In this document: piece by piece, positions 33,427 to 57,069 of the stretch | How the letters are laid out: every line of letters starts with the position of its first letter | How positions within the stretch are numbered: the stretch's first letter is position 1 | Source of the DNA: Hypomesus transpacificus | Taxonomy: Eukaryota; Chordata; Actinopteri; Osmeriformes; Osmeridae | DNA: 64,000 nucleotides | Direction of reading: 5' to 3' | Assembly: GCF_021917145.1 (NCBI RefSeq) | Contig: NC_061073.1 | Location: forward strand, 16,239,840-16,303,839 | Notes under the pieces: generated by a model | What the model saw: the letters and a program-made list of their open reading frames with translations, nothing else | What the model was told of the DNA's origin: nothing | The model's database searches: none | Position numbers and translations under genes: made by a program

Positions 33427-35315
33427 GGTGGCTCAAGCTAGTGCGCTGTCCCTCAGGTTTGACTAGAAAACCACTTGAATAGGCTTTCCATTGCACCGAG
33501 ATTCCGGCTATAGTCTGCAGCTGATCTCTGCAGCCGAGGTTGACATTATTCAAAAGTTGTCACAGTAGCTAAGATTCGCTTGGTGCTAGCTAGCGGCTAA
33601 ATCAGAGTAACTGTCGCGCGCCTATTAGCTAGCTAGCTAATCAAAGCATAGTGGTTACTAGTCTTATCCTGTACATTACCTTGGCATATAGTATCACATT
33701 TTGACACTCTGCACTTTACAGTTCACAATAGCGAACTGTAAAACGTGTTGCCTGGTACAATGCATTTGATTAGCAATAAAATTATAATGCTTGTCCGCCA
33801 CTTTTCAAGATTCTGCGCTCAGAAGGCCGAAGCAATCGATGAAAATCCGTCCGACTAGAATAATAGATCTCTGACGGATCGATTTCCATCGGTTCTGGTT
33901 CAGATTACAGACAGTGAACCTGAAGTTTTGTTCTAATTAATGCTATTCGAAATATTGTACATTAAATCCTAATCATCATTATTGTTATCCAGGAAAAATA
34001 CTGAATTGTCTTTTTAGTCGTACGTTTTTGCAAATCCATTCATTTTTTTAATGTTACATTTTCATGTTAAAAAATCAACCACATTCTGGTTTGAATTGAT
34101 GCGGAGCTTCTCATCTAGGCAACAAATGTTATATTAATCAAGTATGCCTACTCTGTGCTATAACTAGCGTGTCATTACTTCATTATTGTAAATATAAATT
34201 TATACTAGACTGTATTTAATTCAGAAAGACCGCTATCTCATTGTATGTGCCAAGACCAAGGTACGACATTATCTTACGGTGCTGTCCAGGGAAGAGAGAA
34301 GAATAGCGATGTGCCTTTCTTACACACGTTCCAGGGCTGTGAGTGTTTTCTTCAAAAACCACCAGATTCCGGGGCAATCTCTGTGATCGGAGATAAACCA
34401 GCGTTTAAAGGGAGCCATACCTTTACCCTACGAATCGATGTTGGTAAGTATCCTATAATTATTTGATGTTCAATGATAGAGAATTTGCTGTGTTGGCAGA
34501 TCAATCTTTCAATTTGTTTTAGCTCATATCCAATGATGAGCTCTGGGGCACAAAAATTGCATCTCAGACCCAAGCCACAACATTCATCATCACCAAGACC
34601 CTTAGCATGGTGCAGTGCCAATGAGATATCATTAAAATGAAGGTCGTTGAATTTTTATGTTTGCCATGTATCTGGTAAAATCGTAAACCTGGACCTTGGT
34701 AAGAAAAATGTGATGAAATGATGTGGATCATGGATGAATATGTCACTATGCGATAAGGTTCGAGACAAGAAAAAACGGTTATCTTCAGGTTATAAAGAAT
34801 GTAAAATCGAGAAACACTTGTGTGAGGGTTAGGGACAGTTTATCTATAGTAACACCCCCTGCAGTTGCGGCAAAAGTTTGGCGTAATGAATTAGCATCTG
34901 ATTATTATGTGAAAGGCTCTGGGAAAATCCGTCGTGAATATGCATTCAAAATATAAATATATCTAGATCAAAGATTTTAGCACAAGGCCTTGTGTGTACA
35001 TAAGATAGTCAAGCTAATTTGACAGTTCAGTACCTTGGACAGTTCTGTTTTAGTGCGCATTTTAGTGGGTGGGGGATGGGGTTTAACGGAGGCGTGCTCA
35101 GGTGTTGTTGGGTAGAAATAGTTTGGCTAAAACATCTATTTGCAAGTGCATGTTCTCTTTCCAAATATTTGGCGTTGTTGTGTTGTTTTTCATCACAGAT
35201 CATGTTGTTTATTCATATGCATGTCCACTGTGTAATTCTTTAATTGTAAAAAATGTCCATTGTGTCTCTGATCTACTGTAGGACCAAGAATAGAGGGGGA
35301 TTACCAGAGCCAACC
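33427..35315. promoter_or_regulatory. Divergent fan1/apba2 intergenic region
   Basis: fan1 reads left and apba2 reads right from this 1.9 kb interval. The fan1 promoter should lie just right of 33426. The first coding apba2 exon has an acceptor (actgtag) at about 35280, so at least one upstream non-coding exon exists. A candidate lies before a strong donor (gatgttg|gtaagt) near 34443, but this is unproven. No other gene was seen. Confidence 0.45.
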
Positions 35316-38300
35316 ATGGCTTATGGAAAGAGACCAGGGACTATTACCAAAATACAGGGAGCCAGTTCTCCATCCTGCCCAGGTCCTGGCCCTGGATTCA
35401 CAGCGTATCCAGGTGAGGAAACACAGGATTTGAGGAGAGAATCCCCTCCACCTCGCCACCGCAGAAGCACAGAGCTGTATCACAACAACCAGCCTACCCC
35501 CCCTGGCCTGGCTCGTGTCCGTCCTCTGACCTGTGACCTGAGTACCGATGGCCTGGACGAGGAGGACACTTGTTCTGAGTACGACAACGTGGGCTCCGAC
35601 GTGGAGCAGCACTCTGATGAAGTGCTGCACAGTGTTGGAAACGGAAAGAGCGTGGACGTGACCTACTACACCCACTTCCGCTCCGAGGAGGGCACGTATG
35701 TGGAGACCGTGGTGGACGGCACTGACGAAGGCTGCAGCGTCGTTGGTCGTCGTTCGCCCAGGGAACATCGCAACTCAGAAATACATGAGGAACCACCGCA
35801 GGACAAAGAACCTCCTCACTCCGACCGGCAGTTTAGTTCCTGTCCCGCCCCCGTGCCAAGAGGCAAAGAGAACGATGAGCCGAGGCAGAAACAGGAATAT
35901 TTCTCTGATGAACCCGAGCAGGAACAGCAGGATGGAGCCGGACACACAGAGGACGATACGGAAGGCACGGTTAAGACCTCCGTCGCTCAGCAGGAGAATA
36001 AGGGAGAGAGGATGAGAAAGAGAGAAGGAGAGGATAGGGCTAGCGAGCCTAATGAGGTCTACTCTACAAGGAACTGTGTTATCCCAGAGAGCAGTAAGAA
36101 GTCAGCTAGTGAGTCGTCTCTCAGAAGCACTAAAGAGAAGGCGAGACACAGCAAGGGAAGGGGCAAACTGGAAACAGGCGAGGATGTGGAGCTTACAGTG
36201 CCTGGGGCAAAGGGGTGTCCTAACAGCCCCACTCACCCAGAGGCCCAGAAGAACGGCAGACCAGCAACCATCAGGCCAAAACCTAGATCCAACATCAGTA
36301 AGCCACAGCCTCCCCCACATCAGCATCCTAACAAGACCCAGATCCAGGCACACACCAATCCACAACCCAAACCCAAGCCACAGCCACAGCCCAAACCCCA
36401 GCCACAGCCCAAAGCCCAGACCAAGACCCAAAACAAGCCCAAGACCCCTGGCCCACAGACCCACCAACCTCAACAGAGAAGAGGGGGTCCCACCAGACCC
36501 ACCCCAGAGAAGAGCCAGCCCATAGCTTCCAGCCCACCTCAAACGCTGCCCCATATCACCGAGCTACAGAGGGTGCCGTCTGAAGACAGGGAGGTGTGGG
36601 CAGAAACACAAAAACAAGTAAGTGTTGCAAACGGGACAGGGTTTGCTTTGATATATTTACCCTGCATGTCTGATCATCTGACCGTATGGTCCCTGCTCAC
36701 TCTGTTACAAATGTATTTCAGAGTGTCGCAGAGCAGCCAAGGATGCCTCCCTGCTCCCAGCCTAAACCACCAGAGGACAGCATTGACCAGGTGAAGGTGA
36801 ATGCTGAGGTAATTAGAATACAGCTAACTAATTGTTTGTCAATTATCCACACGTGAACGAATATCGAATGTTTTCTTTTTTTCTTTTCAGCAAACGCAAG
36901 AAAAGGCTTCTTTTCCAAGCTTTGTGGACGGTAAATATATTTGTCATGTGCTTTATGAATTCCGTATGCTGTTTGGCGGATGAACAATTCATCAAGCTGG
37001 TTGTTTCACAGTCCCAGGTCCCTGTGAACCAGAGGACCTGATCGATGGGATCATCTTTGCTGCTAACTACCTTGGCTGCACTCAGGTGCTGTCAGACAAA
37101 AACCCTTCCAAAGCCATCCGCATGTCGCAGGCTCAGGAGGCTGTCAGCCGTGTGAAGGTAGAGCCCCTTGTGCCGGGGAGTCACATACCAAATCCAGTTC
37201 TTAATGCAAGTGTGGGCCTAAAAACGCTGAATGTGCAATCATTTGTCAAAACACAGCAATGCCGCATCATGTTTAATTGATTGCAGCCGCTGTTATAGAG
37301 TACACTGTAGAGCCACAAGGTGGAGCTCTAACATGTTTTTGTTTTTTACCTGTCCACAGTGTCAAGACGAAGATTCACAGATGGTGACTGAAGTGGACCT
37401 GTTCATCTCCACCAAGGCTGTCAAAGTGTTAAATGCAGACACACAGGTCTGTAATGGTCAGCCCTGCATCATCAAATCTAAAAGGTATTCCGAAAGGGCA
37501 AATATTTACATCAAGAACAATTGGATCATTATTTGTGTCTTTTATTCACGCAGGAAACGATGATGGACAGTGCCCTTCGTATAATCTCCTATATTGCGGA
37601 TATTGGGAACATTGTGGTTCTGATGGCAAGGAGACGCATGTCTCAGGCCACCTCGCAAGACTGCACAGAGGACGCTCTGTCTCCTGCTGAGGGTCAGAGG
37701 CAGTACAGGATGATCTGCTACGTCTTTGAATCGGAGGACGTAAGAATTCAAACCCTCTGTCATAAGGCCTGGTGCCACATCCAAATAGAACATGTCACCT
37801 TAATCTGAACGGTTTCTCTCATGACTGCATTGTTCACTGGAGCAAAAAGGTTAAGTAGTTCTTCCCAACCAACCCTTCCCACAGGCACAACTCATTGCCC
37901 AGTCCATCGGTCAGGCTTTCAGTGTGGCGTACAGAGAATTTCTCAGAGCCAATGGAATCAACCCAAAGGACCTGAGCCAGAAACAATACAGTGACATCAT
38001 CAATTCCCAAGAAATGTACAATGATGACCTGATACATTTCTCAAACTCTGACAACTGTAAAGAGGTATGCTATGTTTTTTTTATTGCAGATAAAAATTAT
38101 AACGATGATGCATTTGTACGGAAACAATAACCTGTGTTGGCAGAGCCTAGAGCCATCTGTGACCATCCGTAAGCACCCCTTATGTTCATCCCTTTAATGT
38201 AAACACCTTTAAGATGTCCTCTTTCTCCCTTCACCTGGAAGCTGCACGTGGACAAGCAGAAGGGGGAGAGCCTGGGGGTGGTGATCGTCGAGTCTGGCTG

Positions 38301-39621
38301 GGGCTCCATCCTGCCCACCGTGATCCTGGCCAACATGCAGAACAGTGGCCCCGCTGCCCGCTCTGGGAAACTCAACATTGGAGACCAGATCATGTCCATC
38401 AACGACACCAGCCTGGTGGGGCTTCCTCTGGCCACCTGCCAGGGCATCATCAAGGTACAGAGGGAGCGGTCAAGCACCGTCAGCATGTCAGTAAGCCATC
38501 TGACCTTTTCGTCCCTGCTCCCTGTTGTGACTGGTATAGGTTAATGGGTTTTTACTAGACAGGTCTCAGGGTCACCAATCCATACTGTTGTTTCAGGGCT
38601 TGAAGAGTCACTTGCAGGTGAAGCTGAGCATCGTGAGTTGCCCCCCGGTTACGACCGTCCTCATCAAAAGGCCGGACCTCAAGTTCCAGCTGGGCTTTAG
38701 TGTTCAGAACGGCATAGTGAGTGGGGTTTGCTTTACTCTGGGGGTCAGGTGGATGAGCGGTTAGGGAGTTGGGCTATTAATCAGAAGGTTGTTGGTTCAA
38801 TTCCCAGCTGTGCAAAATGACGTTGTGTCCTTGGGCAAGGCACTTCACCCAGTTGCCTCGGGGAGAATGTCCCTGTACTTACTGTTAGTAGCTCTGGATA
38901 AGAGCGTCTGCTAAATGACTAAATGTAAAATGTAAATGTACTCTGTCTGTGTGCTCCGTAAAGGACAGTCCCTCAGAAGGGGGTGTTTACATGTAGTCAT
39001 TTAGCAGACGCTCTTATCCAGAGCGACTTACAGTAAGTACAGGGACATTCCCCCATGAGGCAAGTAGGGTGAAGTGCCTTGCCAAAGGACACAACGTCAT
39101 TTGGCACGGCTGGGAATCGAACTGGCAACATTCAGATTACTAGCCCGATTCTCTAACCGCTCAGCCACCTGACTCCCTATTGTTTGACTCTGTGTGCAGA
39201 TTTGCAGCCTGATGCGGGGTGGCATTGCGGAGCGAGGAGGGGTGCGTGTCGGCCACAGGATTATTGAAATCAACGGCCAGAGCGTGGTTGCCATGGCACA
39301 TGAGAAGATTGTCCAGACCTTGTCTGTTTCAGTGGGTGAGGTGAGCAAACAAGTTCAATCATAATTGTAATGCCTAATCCACATCCAAAATGCACACAGT
39401 GAATTGAATTGTTTCTCATATCTTATCTGGGCCCTTACAGTAAATCTGTGATACGTGTATTTTTTAAGGATCTATAAGTCTAGGTAAGATTTGACATAAG
39501 TTCAACCAACACCTGCTCACACTTGTCCTCCTGTCTCTCTCCACGTCAGATCAACATGAAGACCATGCCTGCTGTGATGTTCAGACTGCTGACAGGGCAG
39601 GAGACTCCCGTCTACATATAG
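35316..39621 (+). CDS. apba2: Amyloid-beta precursor-binding family A member 2 (Mint2/X11L)
   Basis: A neuronal adaptor that binds the NPTY motif of APP and Munc18-1 and links them to trafficking. Exons: 35316-36617, 36722-36808, 36891-36930, 37012-37157, 37360-37446, 37554-37739, 37885-38064, 38242-38454, 38597-38716, 39200-39340, 39550-39621, all in phase, 857 residues. The N-terminal half is disordered and poorly conserved. It holds a [14 protein letters not shown] segment like the Munc18-binding region and a Lys-Pro-Gln repeat near residues 350-375. The PTB domain (about 478-676: [20 protein letters not shown] through [10 protein letters not shown]) and two PDZ domains (about 677-765 and 770-857: [12 protein letters not shown] and [16 protein letters not shown]) are nearly identical to human, and the protein ends in [21 protein letters not shown] and GQETPVYI favour APBA2 over APBA1. 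The ATG at 35316 has a strong context (ccaaccatgg). Confidence 0.95.
38743..38940 (+). mobile_element. tRNA-derived SINE, copy 3 (apba2 intron, forward)
   Basis: A full-length forward copy with gtcaggtggatgagcggtta, ggttcaattcccagctgtgc, the tgtccttgggcaaggcactt block and a gctctggataagagcgtctg tail with aaatgtaaaatgtaaatgta at the end. It shares one apba2 intron with an inverted copy 46 bases away. Confidence 0.93.
38986..39177 (-). mobile_element. tRNA-derived SINE, copy 4 (apba2 intron, reverse)
   Basis: A full-length reverse copy, reading from tacatgtagtcatttagcag to ccgctcagccacctgactcc on the plus strand. It lies just before the apba2 exon at 39200, so its A/B-box end is about 22 bases from that acceptor. 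Confidence 0.93.
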
Positions 39622-53100: not shown

Positions 53101-56100
53101 GTACTCTGGAGAATAAACCAAAACAAATCTCAAAAACGTAACGTTGTAGCACAGAAAGTGAAGGATTCCATCATGGATGCATCTTTTCCTGTTTCAGGCA
53201 CCACAGGCATTCTGCTTCTCTTAATCTTTGCCTTCATGTACGTGTTCGCCTCCTTCTACTTCCGACGAATCAGCTTCCAGGGATTCTGGATCACACACAA
53301 CCTCTACGTGCTTGTGTACATTCTGGTGAGCCACCACCCACCCACCCCTTCCATCTGTCACTGTGTATAAAAATAAATAAACCCCTCATGCAAACCATTG
53401 TGGTGTTGCACTGTTAACATGGTGTGGTGGATCCTACCTGTGGGAACTGACGGAGGTCCCACAGTAGAGTGAGTCTTAGCTGTGTGCTTCCCCATGACAG
53501 ACGGTCATCCATGGCAGCTACGCCCTACTCCAGGAGCCCCGCTTCTACATCTACCTGATCCCCCCCGCTCTACTCTTCCTGCTGGACAAGCTGATCAGCC
53601 TGAACAGGAAGAAGGTTGAGATCCCTGTAGTGAAGGCTGAGTTGCTGCCTTCAGGTACCCCCGCTTCTCCCAGCCAATCAAAGCTTAGCATAGGACTACA
53701 GTAGAGATTACACCACACCAAAAGACTTCTGTTGTAGTTGGATATTTGATGCGTGTTCTTATTATTATTGACATAAAAAAACATTGACAAACAGTTTCTG
53801 TCCCACACACAGCCATCTAATTCCACAGTTATCATTATTATGATCATCAACATAATCCTGTTCATTTTAATAATAATTCACATCAGAGAGGGTTATCTTC
53901 TTCCGGTTCATAGTGTTTAGTAACATCACGTGTTGGTTTTACCGGTCCGTGACTGCTTCTCCGCAGGAGTGACGTACCTGGAGTTCAAGCGTCCGCAGGG
54001 TTTCGTGTACCGCTCAGGCCAGTGGGTCCGTGTAGCCTGCCTGTCACTGGCCACAGACGAGTACCACCCCTTCACCCTGACTTCAGCCCCACACGAGAAG
54101 ACCCTCAGCCTGCACATTCGAGCTGTGGGCCCCTGGACGAGCCGACTCAGAGAGCTCTACACTCCAGAGAGCCTTGCAGAGCTGGGCACCTATCCAAAGG
54201 TACAGTGCCCTCCAAAAGTATTGGAACAGTGAGGCCAATTCCTTTATTTTTGCTGTAAACTGAAAACATTTGGGCTTGACATCAAACGATGAATGTGAAA
54301 CCAGAGATCAACGTTTCAGCTTTTATTTCCAGGTATTTACATCAGGATCTGATGCACAAATTAGAAAATATCACCTTTTTGTTCGAACCCACCCATTTGT
54401 CACGTGAGCAAAAGTATTGGAACATGTGACTGACAGGTGTGTTTTGTTGCCCAGGTGTGTCCTATTACATACATTATTCAATCAATAAATACCACTGAAT
54501 GTCTACACTCAGGTTCAGATTGGGTAAGATAGGTTTTGTCTATGCAGACTGTATTCAGAGGTGAAAACAACATGAAAACCAGAGCGCTGTCTTTGGGTGA
54601 AAAACAAGCAATTGTGAGTCTTAGAGAAGATGGAAAATCAATCAGAGCCATTGCAGAAACATTGGCCATAGCCAGTACAACCATTTGGAATGTCCTGAAG
54701 AAGAAGAAAACTACTGGTGTACTAAGTAACAGACGTCGAACAGGTAGACCAAGGAAAACATCAGCAGTTGATGACAGAAACATTGTGAGAGCTGTAAAGA
54801 AAGACCCTAAAACAACTGTTAGTGAGATCAGCAACAACCTCCAGATGGCAGGAGTGAAGGTATCACTATCTACTGTTCGCAGAAGACTTCATGAACAAAA
54901 GTACAAGGGCTACACCAGAAGATGCAAACCACTCATTAGCAAGAAGAATAGGAAGGCCAGGCTGGAATTTGCCAAAAAGTACAGAGATGAACCTCAAAAA
55001 TTCTGGGACAAAGTTTTATGGACTGATGAGACAAAGATGAACTTTTACCAAAGTGATGGAAAGGCTAAAGTTTGGAGAAAGAAAGGAACTGCTCATGATC
55101 CCAAACACACAAGCTCATCTGTGAAACACGGTGGAGGTAATGTCATGGCTTGGGCTTGCATGGCTTCTTCTGGGACGGGCTCAATAATCTTCATTGAGGA
55201 TGTAACACATGATGGCAGCAGCAAAATGAACTCGGAAGTCTACAGAAACATTTTGTCTGCCAATTTAAGGAAAGATGCAACCAAACTGATTGGCAGAGCC
55301 TTCATCATGCAGCAAGATAACGACCCAAAACACACTGCCAAAACAACAAAGGAGTTCATCAGGGGCAAGAAATGGAAGGTATTAGACTGGCCAAGTCAAT
55401 CTCCAGACTTAAACCCTATAGAGCATGCATTTTACCTGCTTAAGAGGAGACTGAAGGGAGGAACCCCACAAAACAAACAACAACTGAAAGAGGCTGCAGT
55501 GAAAGCCTGGGAAAGCATCAAAAAGGAAGAATGCAAAAGTTTGGTGACGTCAATGGGTCACAGACTTGCTGCAGTTATTGAAAGCAAAGGATTTGCAACT
55601 AAATATTAAGTCTTATTCACTTAAATATGTTTTAAGTATATCTGTTCCAATACTTTTGATCACATGACAAATGGGTGGATTCAAACAAAATGTGATATTT
55701 TCTTAGTTGTGCATCAGATCCTGATGTAAATACCTGGAAATAAAAGCTGAAACGTTGATCTCTGGTCTCACGTTCATTATTTGATGTCAAGCCCAAATGT
55801 TTTCAGTCTACAGCAAAAATAAAGGAATTCGCCTCACTGTTCCAATACTTTTGGAGGGCACTGTATGTCAGCACCTGTTTGTGTGTGTTGATAGGTGTTT
55901 GTGTGCATTTGTGTGTGTGTATTTGCTGTGTGAATGCTAAGTTTCCCTGACTGTTTTATGACAGCTGTACCTGGACGGGCCGTTTGGAGAAGGCCACCAG
56001 GAGTGGACAGACTTTGAGGTGTCTGTTCTGGTCGGGGGAGGAATCGGAGTTACCCCCTTCGCCTCCATTCTAAAGGACCTTGTGTCCTCAAACAAGTCTA

Positions 56101-57069
56101 AGATTCAGTGTAAAAAGGTACAGTGCCCTGAAACTGTTTACCTGACCCCTGTCTGCCATCTCACCTCACACTTATGACCACAATGACTGATGTGTTGAAG
56201 GTCTACTTCATCTGGGTCACACGAACACAGCGCCAGTTTGAGTGGGTGTCTGACATCATCAAGGAAGTAGAGGAGAAGGACACTCTGGACCTCGTGTCGG
56301 TCCACACCTACATCACACAGCTGCCTGAGAAGTTTGACCTTCGCACCACCATGCTGGTGACTGACAGGAGATATGATTTTAGCAAACAGAGTTGATTTAA
56401 GTCTTTTTGATGGAGCAACTGTGGTCTGTAGAGTGTGTACCGGTTACATAAAGTGATGTGTGTGTTTGTGTGTGTCTTTATGTGGGATGCGACCGCAGTA
56501 TGTGTGCGAACGTCACTTCCAGAAAGTGCGGAACCAGAGCCTGTTCACCGGACTGCGGTCTGTTACTCACTTTGGTCGTCCTCCATTCGTGCCCTTCTTC
56601 AACTCGCTACAGGAAGTTCATCCTGAGGTCAGGGTGACCCCTCCCTCTCCATGCACGTCACTTCCTGCTTAGCAGCACCTCAGAGCATTCCTCTGCGTCC
56701 TTCTATCTATAGACTAGTGAAATCATGTGGGGTGGTGCTGGTGGTGTTTGTGATTGGCTGGTGGGTGGCATGTAACTCTGTATCAACTCGGTGTCTCACG
56801 GTGAATGCGTGAGACTTGAGCACCTTATATAAATGATTGAAAAAATGAAATGAATGAATGGGGGGGTCGCGACCCACCAGGGCTATCTAGATATAGCAAG
56901 ATGGTTGAAAGTTGGACAGAATATTTTTTTCTTCTCCTCCCTGAAGGTGGTTAAAATGGGTGTGTTCAGCTGTGGGCCTCCTGGACTCACCAAGAACGTG
57001 GAGAAGGCTTGCCAGCAGATGAACAAGAGAGACCAGACCCACTTCATCCATCACTATGAGAACTTCTAG
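44134..57069 (+). CDS. duox: Dual oxidase
   Basis: A membrane NADPH oxidase that releases hydrogen peroxide for thyroid hormone synthesis and mucosal defence. Thirty-three exons chain in frame: 44134-44197, 44338-44421, 44543-44701, 44856-45043, 45139-45334, 45827-45993, 46298-46361, 46762-46855, 47008-47098, 47279-47381, 47648-47820, 47942-48117, 48248-48366, 48487-48624, 48817-48930, 49130-49332, 49441-49626, 49881-50106, 50228-50321, 50765-50940, 51050-51122, 51466-51546, 51792-51970, 52281-52511, 52851-52950, 53051-53100, 53198-53325, 53501-53654, 53967-54199, 55965-56117, 56201-56356, 56499-56627, 56947-57069. Length 1534 (human DUOX1 1551). Order: signal peptide, peroxidase-like ectodomain, first helix (about 596), EF-hands [12 protein letters not shown] (about 827) and [12 protein letters not shown] (about 863), ferric-reductase helices with conserved His, FAD site [11 protein letters not shown], and NADPH motifs [23 protein letters not shown] and CGPPG. 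It ends HHYENF. A Tc1 element interrupts the intron after 54199. Confidence 0.97.
47431..47617 (-). mobile_element. tRNA-derived SINE, copy 6 (duox intron)
   Basis: A reverse copy (plus strand ttacatttagcagacgctct through taaccgctcagccatctgac) in the duox intron between 47381 and 47648, ending about 30 bases before the next acceptor. Confidence 0.93.
50372..50741. mobile_element. PIF/Harbinger-like MITE (duox intron)
   Basis: A 364-base insert (50375-50738) flanked by TAA on both sides. Its left end agcctcatttatacttatgt and the reverse complement of its right end, agcccaatttatacttaggt, match at most positions, and the similarity runs on for about 45 bases (gacacttttgaaa and gatcgccg/ggtcgccg). 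There is no coding capacity. TAA duplications with TIRs are typical of the PIF/Harbinger superfamily. It lies in the duox intron between the two exons that follow the first EF-hand. Confidence 0.75.
51132..51318 (+). mobile_element. tRNA-derived SINE, copy 7 (duox intron)
   Basis: A forward copy starting gtaacgtggctgagcggtta only about 10 bases after the duox donor at 51122, with a slightly shortened central block and the gctctggatgagagtgtctg tail. Sense to duox. Confidence 0.92.
54201..55865 (+). mobile_element. Complete Tc1/mariner element in duox
   Basis: The element itself is 54203-55863 (1661 bases), flanked by TA at 54201-54202 and 55864-55865. Both ends read cagtgccctccaaaagtatt inwards. 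The inverted repeats run about 215 bases, with few mismatches, and carry the inner repeat aaaagtattggaaca near 54410, which is the IR/DR arrangement of fish Tc1 elements. It lies in the same orientation as duox, starting 2 bases into an intron. The transposase frame is open from start to stop. High TIR identity and the intact frame suggest a young insertion. Confidence 0.96.
54572..55609 (+). CDS. Tc1-like transposase
   Basis: A 345-residue transposase, the usual length for fish Tc1 families. The N-terminus has a paired-like pair of helix-turn-helix domains (about 1-110) split by the AT-hook-like GRPR motif at 58-61. The catalytic DD34E triad is complete: D152 (WTDE), D249 (QQDNDPKH) and E284 (DLNPIEH), with 34 residues between the last two. 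The Gly-rich HGGGNVMAW box is present. I chose the ATG at 54572, which gives the conserved [10 protein letters not shown] start; an in-frame ATG 10 codons upstream also exists. No stop or frameshift is seen, so it may still be functional. Confidence 0.95.
   Translation: MKTRALSLGEKQAIVSLREDGKSIRAIAETLAIASTTIWNVLKKKKTTGVLSNRRRTGRPRKTSAVDDRNIVRAVKKDPKTTVSEISNNLQMAGVKVSLSTVRRRLHEQKYKGYTRRCKPLISKKNRKARLEFAKKYRDEPQKFWDKVLWTDETKMNFYQSDGKAKVWRKKGTAHDPKHTSSSVKHGGGNVMAWACMASSGTGSIIFIEDVTHDGSSKMNSEVYRNILSANLRKDATKLIGRAFIMQQDNDPKHTAKTTKEFIRGKKWKVLDWPSQSPDLNPIEHAFYLLKRRLKGGTPQNKQQLKEAAVKAWESIKKEECKSLVTSMGHRLAAVIESKGFATKY

Follow-up and report, generated by a model that had tools for sequence, protein, structure and literature searches.

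What becomes of a splice donor when a transposon lands on the very TA that the donor contains, and can the gene around it still be spliced? This question is raised by a locus in the window (the whole stretch of DNA analyzed here, 64,000 nucleotides from Hypomesus transpacificus, G+C content by quarter 41.5-47.7%), where a Tc1 element had been predicted to sit on the TA of a duox donor, and to weaken or break the splicing of that gene. The insertion is confirmed as it was described, and the event, precisely described in the original prediction, is of an ordinary kind; it is the consequence that was overstated, as the donor models considered below point to duox splicing that is probably leaky but mostly normal, with the gene being dented rather than broken.

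The insertion and its host gene

The features of the locus needed to follow the argument are these:

53967..54199, forward strand: duox exon ending ...GTYPK in phase 0 (phmmer against DUOX1)
54200..54205, forward strand: filled donor GTACAG, bases 1-3 being host and bases 4-6 Tc1
54201..54202, forward strand: left copy of the TA target duplication, donor positions +2 and +3
54203..55863, forward strand: Tc1 element, 1661 nt, on the same strand as duox
54203..54424, forward strand: left terminal inverted repeat of Tc1
54572..55609, forward strand: transposase ORF, 345 aa plus stop, with HTH and DDE_3 domains
55643..55863, forward strand: right terminal inverted repeat of Tc1
55864..55865, forward strand: right copy of the TA target duplication
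55866..55964, forward strand: remainder of the original 102-nt intron, with acceptor TATGACAG
55965..56117, forward strand: next duox exon, presumably the start of the NADPH-binding region
56118..56200, forward strand: next duox intron, with donor AAAG|GTACAGTGCCCT

The exon ends in CCAAAG at 54199 and the intron opens with G (54200) and TA (54201-54202), correct to the base as predicted, and the insertion point lies between intron bases 3 and 4. Joining the flanks at the single TA gives the empty site AAAG|GTATGTCAG, the GTATGT-type donor that had been foreseen, and reading the two states against each other (AAAG|GTATGT becoming AAAG|GTACAG) bears out the altered positions +4 to +6, the lost G(+5) and the retained GT. 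The intron (54200-55964), said to have grown from about 100 to 1765 bases, measures 102 nt empty and 1765 nt filled, which makes it the longest of the 28 modelled, the other 27 being 83-492 nt. The inverted repeats are 95% identical between 54201-54379 and 55687-55865, and 92% identical in an inner block (54377-54424 vs 55643-55690). A second CAAAAGTATTGGAACA motif lies in the repeats at 54409, with its complement at 55643; it resembles the IR/DR layout of Sleeping Beauty-like elements.

That the host gene is duox, as had been proposed, is supported by exon homology (the exon before Tc1 matches mouse and human DUOX1 by phmmer) and by a gene model assembled by eye and script and checked afterwards against mouse DUOX1. 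The model covers two stretches, of 912 and 518 aa, each of which can be aligned over its whole length with mouse DUOX1 (6wxr); ~90 residues that separate the two (6wxr 926-1016), and whatever 5' exons precede TWEV, lie outside it. The peroxidase-like, EF-hand and NADPH oxidase parts are collinear with DUOX1, and GTYPK|LYLDG is continuous across the 54199|55965 join. The placing of an NADPH-region exon downstream at 55965 is likewise supported, the label of the region being that of the original prediction, with which our general knowledge agrees. Both flanks are single copy in the 437-Mb assembly (376 contigs), additional matches being short, repeat-like and confined to the GT-rich part of the intron. 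At 35250-38541, ahead of duox and in the same orientation, are exons resembling those of an APBA/X11 (Mint) adaptor gene.

The element family, its age and its targets

The identification of the element as Tc1 is supported by its CAGT-tipped inverted repeats, its TA duplication and a 345-aa frame with Pfam matches to HTH_Tnp_Tc3_2 (88.7 bits, cut-off 31.5) and DDE_3 (49.3 bits, cut-off 28.6). The element was not placed in the Sleeping Beauty group, HTH_SB reaching 22.9 bits against a curated cut-off of 43. A manual count on the translated frame, with the catalytic residues assumed, puts 34 residues between the second D and the E, which fits DD34E. The element shares with members of the Tc1 clade (C. 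elegans Tc1, zebrafish ZB, Sleeping Beauty) the TA duplication, CAGT-ended inverted repeats, an HTH plus DDE_3 transposase with 34-residue D-E spacing and an AT-rich palindromic target, but differs from the systems compared in having long (about 220 nt) inverted repeats. Looking for its tip sequence in the literature for a family name gave no relevant match.

Exact matches to the 35-base tip number 2965 in the assembly (1492 forward, 1473 reverse), which corresponds to ~1480 copies if both tips are assumed intact. Full elements were obtained from 21 of the 23 loci tried (seven of the 21 being top BLAST hits, biased to similarity), and these, together with the copy in the window, show a mean of 4.6 differences over about 1661 aligned positions (median 4, maximum 16). 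The 345-aa frame is intact in 17 of the 21 sampled copies, with one more having 344 aa. The duox copy is very young and probably autonomous, and the family represents a recent, possibly ongoing burst. TA is found on both sides at 16 of 17 sites including the window, the exception (L061) being one where no right end was found; among the 16 other loci, 14 carry 1661 nt with TA on both sides, as in the window, and one carries 1658 nt with TA. Since the same TA-flanked structure is read at so many loci, an assembly slip at the duox TA, which had been named as something that would remove the observation, is unlikely.

ACA as the outward flank, equivalent to TA and then TGT, accompanies 518 of the 2965 tips, about 52 being expected, and AGG accompanies 46 (about 38 expected), where the expectations assume 42% G+C and are altered little by the range seen in the window. 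At the 43 AGG sites readable on both sides (L032, L045 and L061 are unreadable on the right), the joined sequence is GTATAT in 20, GTATGT in 15 and something else in 8, so that 35/43 are GTATAT or GTATGT. The target preference is TA-TRT, in agreement with the consensus CAYATATRTG given for C. elegans Tc1 in PMC9635669 and with ATATATAT, given for zebrafish ZB in PMC7913693. A GTATGT-type donor is, therefore, half of a preferred target, and, with 15 of the 43 AGG-TA insertions having a GTATGT-like empty site, such a site alone is no proof of a donor; at the duox site it is only exon homology that identifies the donor as a real one.

When all 46 AGG-TA tips were checked for an open frame that extends as far as the site, 18 besides duox had one of at least 35 aa, and no Pfam family exceeded its cut-off for these (the longest frames being compared by their last 80 residues only), the single weak sub-threshold match falling in a low-complexity frame. 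Only duox among the 46 thus has a recognizable exon, in a screen that would miss exons below 35 codons and donors not ending in AG. One of the frames (L019) looks ARID1-like, in our judgement, but the sequence joined there, GTAGTT, does not resemble a donor. Another AGG insertion (L020) lies inside a tandem array (GGACACAGTGGAGGGCAGGTACGTACTGCAT...), with GTACGT as the joined site.

Rushforth and Anderson are said to have described, in 1996, C. elegans Tc1 insertions whose element sequence is spliced out of exons by means of cryptic sites. The duox case resembles these in that Tc1 lies in a transcribed gene and splicing may buffer its effect, but it differs in that the gene's own donor is restored where the element entered. 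With introners, as portrayed in PMC9860276, it shares splice-site bases that are part target duplication and part element, although introners make new introns, and here an existing 102-nt intron has been enlarged. An introner reading is not supported, as joining the flanks leaves these two exons separated by a GT-AG intron of 102 nt. Our literature search, with most subscription papers outside its scope, found no earlier description of a Tc1 insertion placed precisely at a splice donor.

How strong is the rebuilt donor?

The predicted weakening stands in part. Scoring both donors, as had been suggested, with a consensus matrix (frequencies from general knowledge, full consensus 8.63 bits) gives 5.48 bits for the empty and 0.11 bits for the filled site; the former outranks 24 of the 27 other modelled duox donors, the latter exceeds four and ties with a fifth (i.e., 5/27 score as low). 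The argument that losing G(+5) should break splicing fares worse, as G(+5) is present in 11 of the 27 other donors and absent in 16, four start with GTAC (GTATGT is found in none), and the donor at 56118, which homology establishes as a real junction (CKK|VYFIW), is identical to the filled one over 16 bases (54196-54211 vs 56114-56129). This identity had been overlooked, as had the GTATGT at 55863 and the cryptic donors within the element.

An old Tc1 relic at the 56118 donor was considered and rejected: TACAGTGCCCTGAAA has seven exact matches in the genome, and a Tc1 end is absent at the other six, three of which lie in one other repeat, the rest sharing only the word with the duox intron. 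The identity is unexplained by a relic and may be due to chance, for which a post hoc hand estimate (nine shared bases over 27 donors) is ~1 in 10,000.

Pairing with the U1 5' end, modelled as free duplex optima only, does not agree with the claim that the filled site is the weaker donor: it is predicted to pair at -7.6 kcal/mol (11 bases; -7.9 over 16-17 bases) and the empty one at -6.8. The filled optimum bulges C(+4), GTA[C]AGT, and A(+5), G(+6) and T(+7) would then pair as the consensus AGT. Weaker pairing than at the filled site is predicted for 16 of the 27 other duox donors, and than at the empty site for 11. The +4 bulge is not exceptional by itself in this model, as 16% of 1024 random +4..+8 endings equal or exceed the filled site in U1 pairing; in favour of the filled site, only 3.1% of random +5..+8 endings do so given C(+4). 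PMC9311317 and PMC12527174 treat a single-base bulge on the target strand as an accepted U1 register and refer to Roca et al. 2012 for bulged-nucleotide 5' splice sites, the former also associating bulge registers with more alternative donor use. The duox site shares with these a predicted one-nucleotide bulge on the pre-mRNA side, but its bulge is a duplex-energy prediction, whereas the bulged registers in those papers are described as used by U1.

The signals that would compete with the filled donor are the following:

54230..54232, forward strand: in-frame TGA met on intron retention
54437..54442, forward strand: cryptic donor CAG|GTGTGT, 5.53 bits, U1 -8.2
54455..54460, forward strand: cryptic donor CAG|GTGTGT, 5.53 bits, U1 -8.0
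54524..54529, forward strand: cryptic donor TGG|GTAAGA, 3.18 bits, U1 -9.2
55863..55868, forward strand: GTATGT recreated by the last G of the element, TA and TGT

In the matrix, 13 GTs within Tc1 score above the filled donor, those at 54437 and 54455 being the best. The candidate at 55863 reads GTATGTCAG and has a poor exon side, ACT (-0.25 bits, U1 -1.9 to -4.4); its use would leave Tc1 in the mRNA. When exon, intron and exon were folded together (2151 nt), positions +1..+9 of the filled donor were predicted to be almost fully base-paired with the right repeat (probability of being unpaired at most 0.05, 212 pairs between the arms). By the same calculation most of the empty donor is paired too (unpaired 0.04 to 0.40 at +1..+6), so the contrast in donor burial is only moderate, and equilibrium folding ignores U1 binding before the far repeat has been transcribed.

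Weighing the readings

In the reading that we favour, and regard as somewhat better than an even proposition on these models, the 54199|55965 junction would stay the main product, at reduced efficiency and with some leakage, after the young Tc1 had inserted. The element entered the TA of AAAG|GTATGT, whose intron side fits its own TA-TRT preference; with the donor beginning G|GTA, the TA duplication would rebuild GTA, and the CAGT tip would supply GTA[C]AGT, readable by U1 with a single bulged C at +4. It is because the rebuilt GTA and the tip would be readable in this way that the normal junction is probably the main product. Leakage would go to retention or to the in-element cryptic donors, both giving an early stop.

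The foremost alternative, unlikely but deserving to be taken seriously, is that the insertion damages splicing severely: the donor would be passed over, with retention, exon skipping or cryptic donors taking its place, and duox would lose its C-terminal catalytic part. The fall from 5.48 to 0.11 bits speaks for it, but the same 16 bases function as the next duox donor, 16/27 donors do without G(+5) and U1 pairing is undiminished. It would also gain from the donor lying within a long predicted stem, although that stem presumably can form only once the right repeat, 1.4 kb further on, has been transcribed. The two 5.53-bit cryptic donors, which lie beyond the left inverted repeat and pair well with U1, the unmatched length of the filled intron and the TGA that a retained intron reaches early and in frame all fit this alternative as well, and the last of these would uphold the expectation that failed splicing truncates duox.

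Distinctly less probable is that splicing here is irrelevant to fitness, the insertion being rare, heterozygous or private and another allele supplying duox. The near identity of the copies, many of which may therefore be polymorphic, is consistent with this, as is an assembly in which the locus appears once and from which zygosity cannot be read; against it, neither flank query found an empty allele in the 376 contigs, though a collapsed assembly would hide one. That the insertion is an artefact of assembly, or a pattern arisen by chance in non-genic DNA, is very improbable in view of the exact TA duplication, the full-length element with intact ends and the duox frame that runs on unbroken from one exon to the next, and nothing was found in its favour.

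Tc1 insertions at GTA donors

The duox locus amounts to a natural experiment on one donor, in which +4 to +6 were changed, and 1.66 kb with a long inverted repeat added, with the GT kept. The general idea it offers, and one worth testing, is that, wherever the target is G|GTA, the duplicated TA and the CAGT tip together restore a readable donor. A bolder version, about which we are doubtful, would have Tc1 pre-adapted to land harmlessly on donors: TA-TRT overlaps GTATGT, and the CAGT tip, near-universal among Tc1 elements to our knowledge, would turn any G|GTA into G|GTA[C]AGT. If that were true, a Tc1 element entering at a GTA donor would be much more likely to be tolerated than one a few bases away, and introns would be left carrying transposon from base 4 onwards. 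Should the duox junction fail, the sequenced fish would carry a recent loss-of-function allele of a gene whose enzyme makes H2O2; should it work, it would support a simple rule for the survival of Tc1 insertions at GTA donors, a rule testable genome-wide in fish with many recent Tc1 copies.
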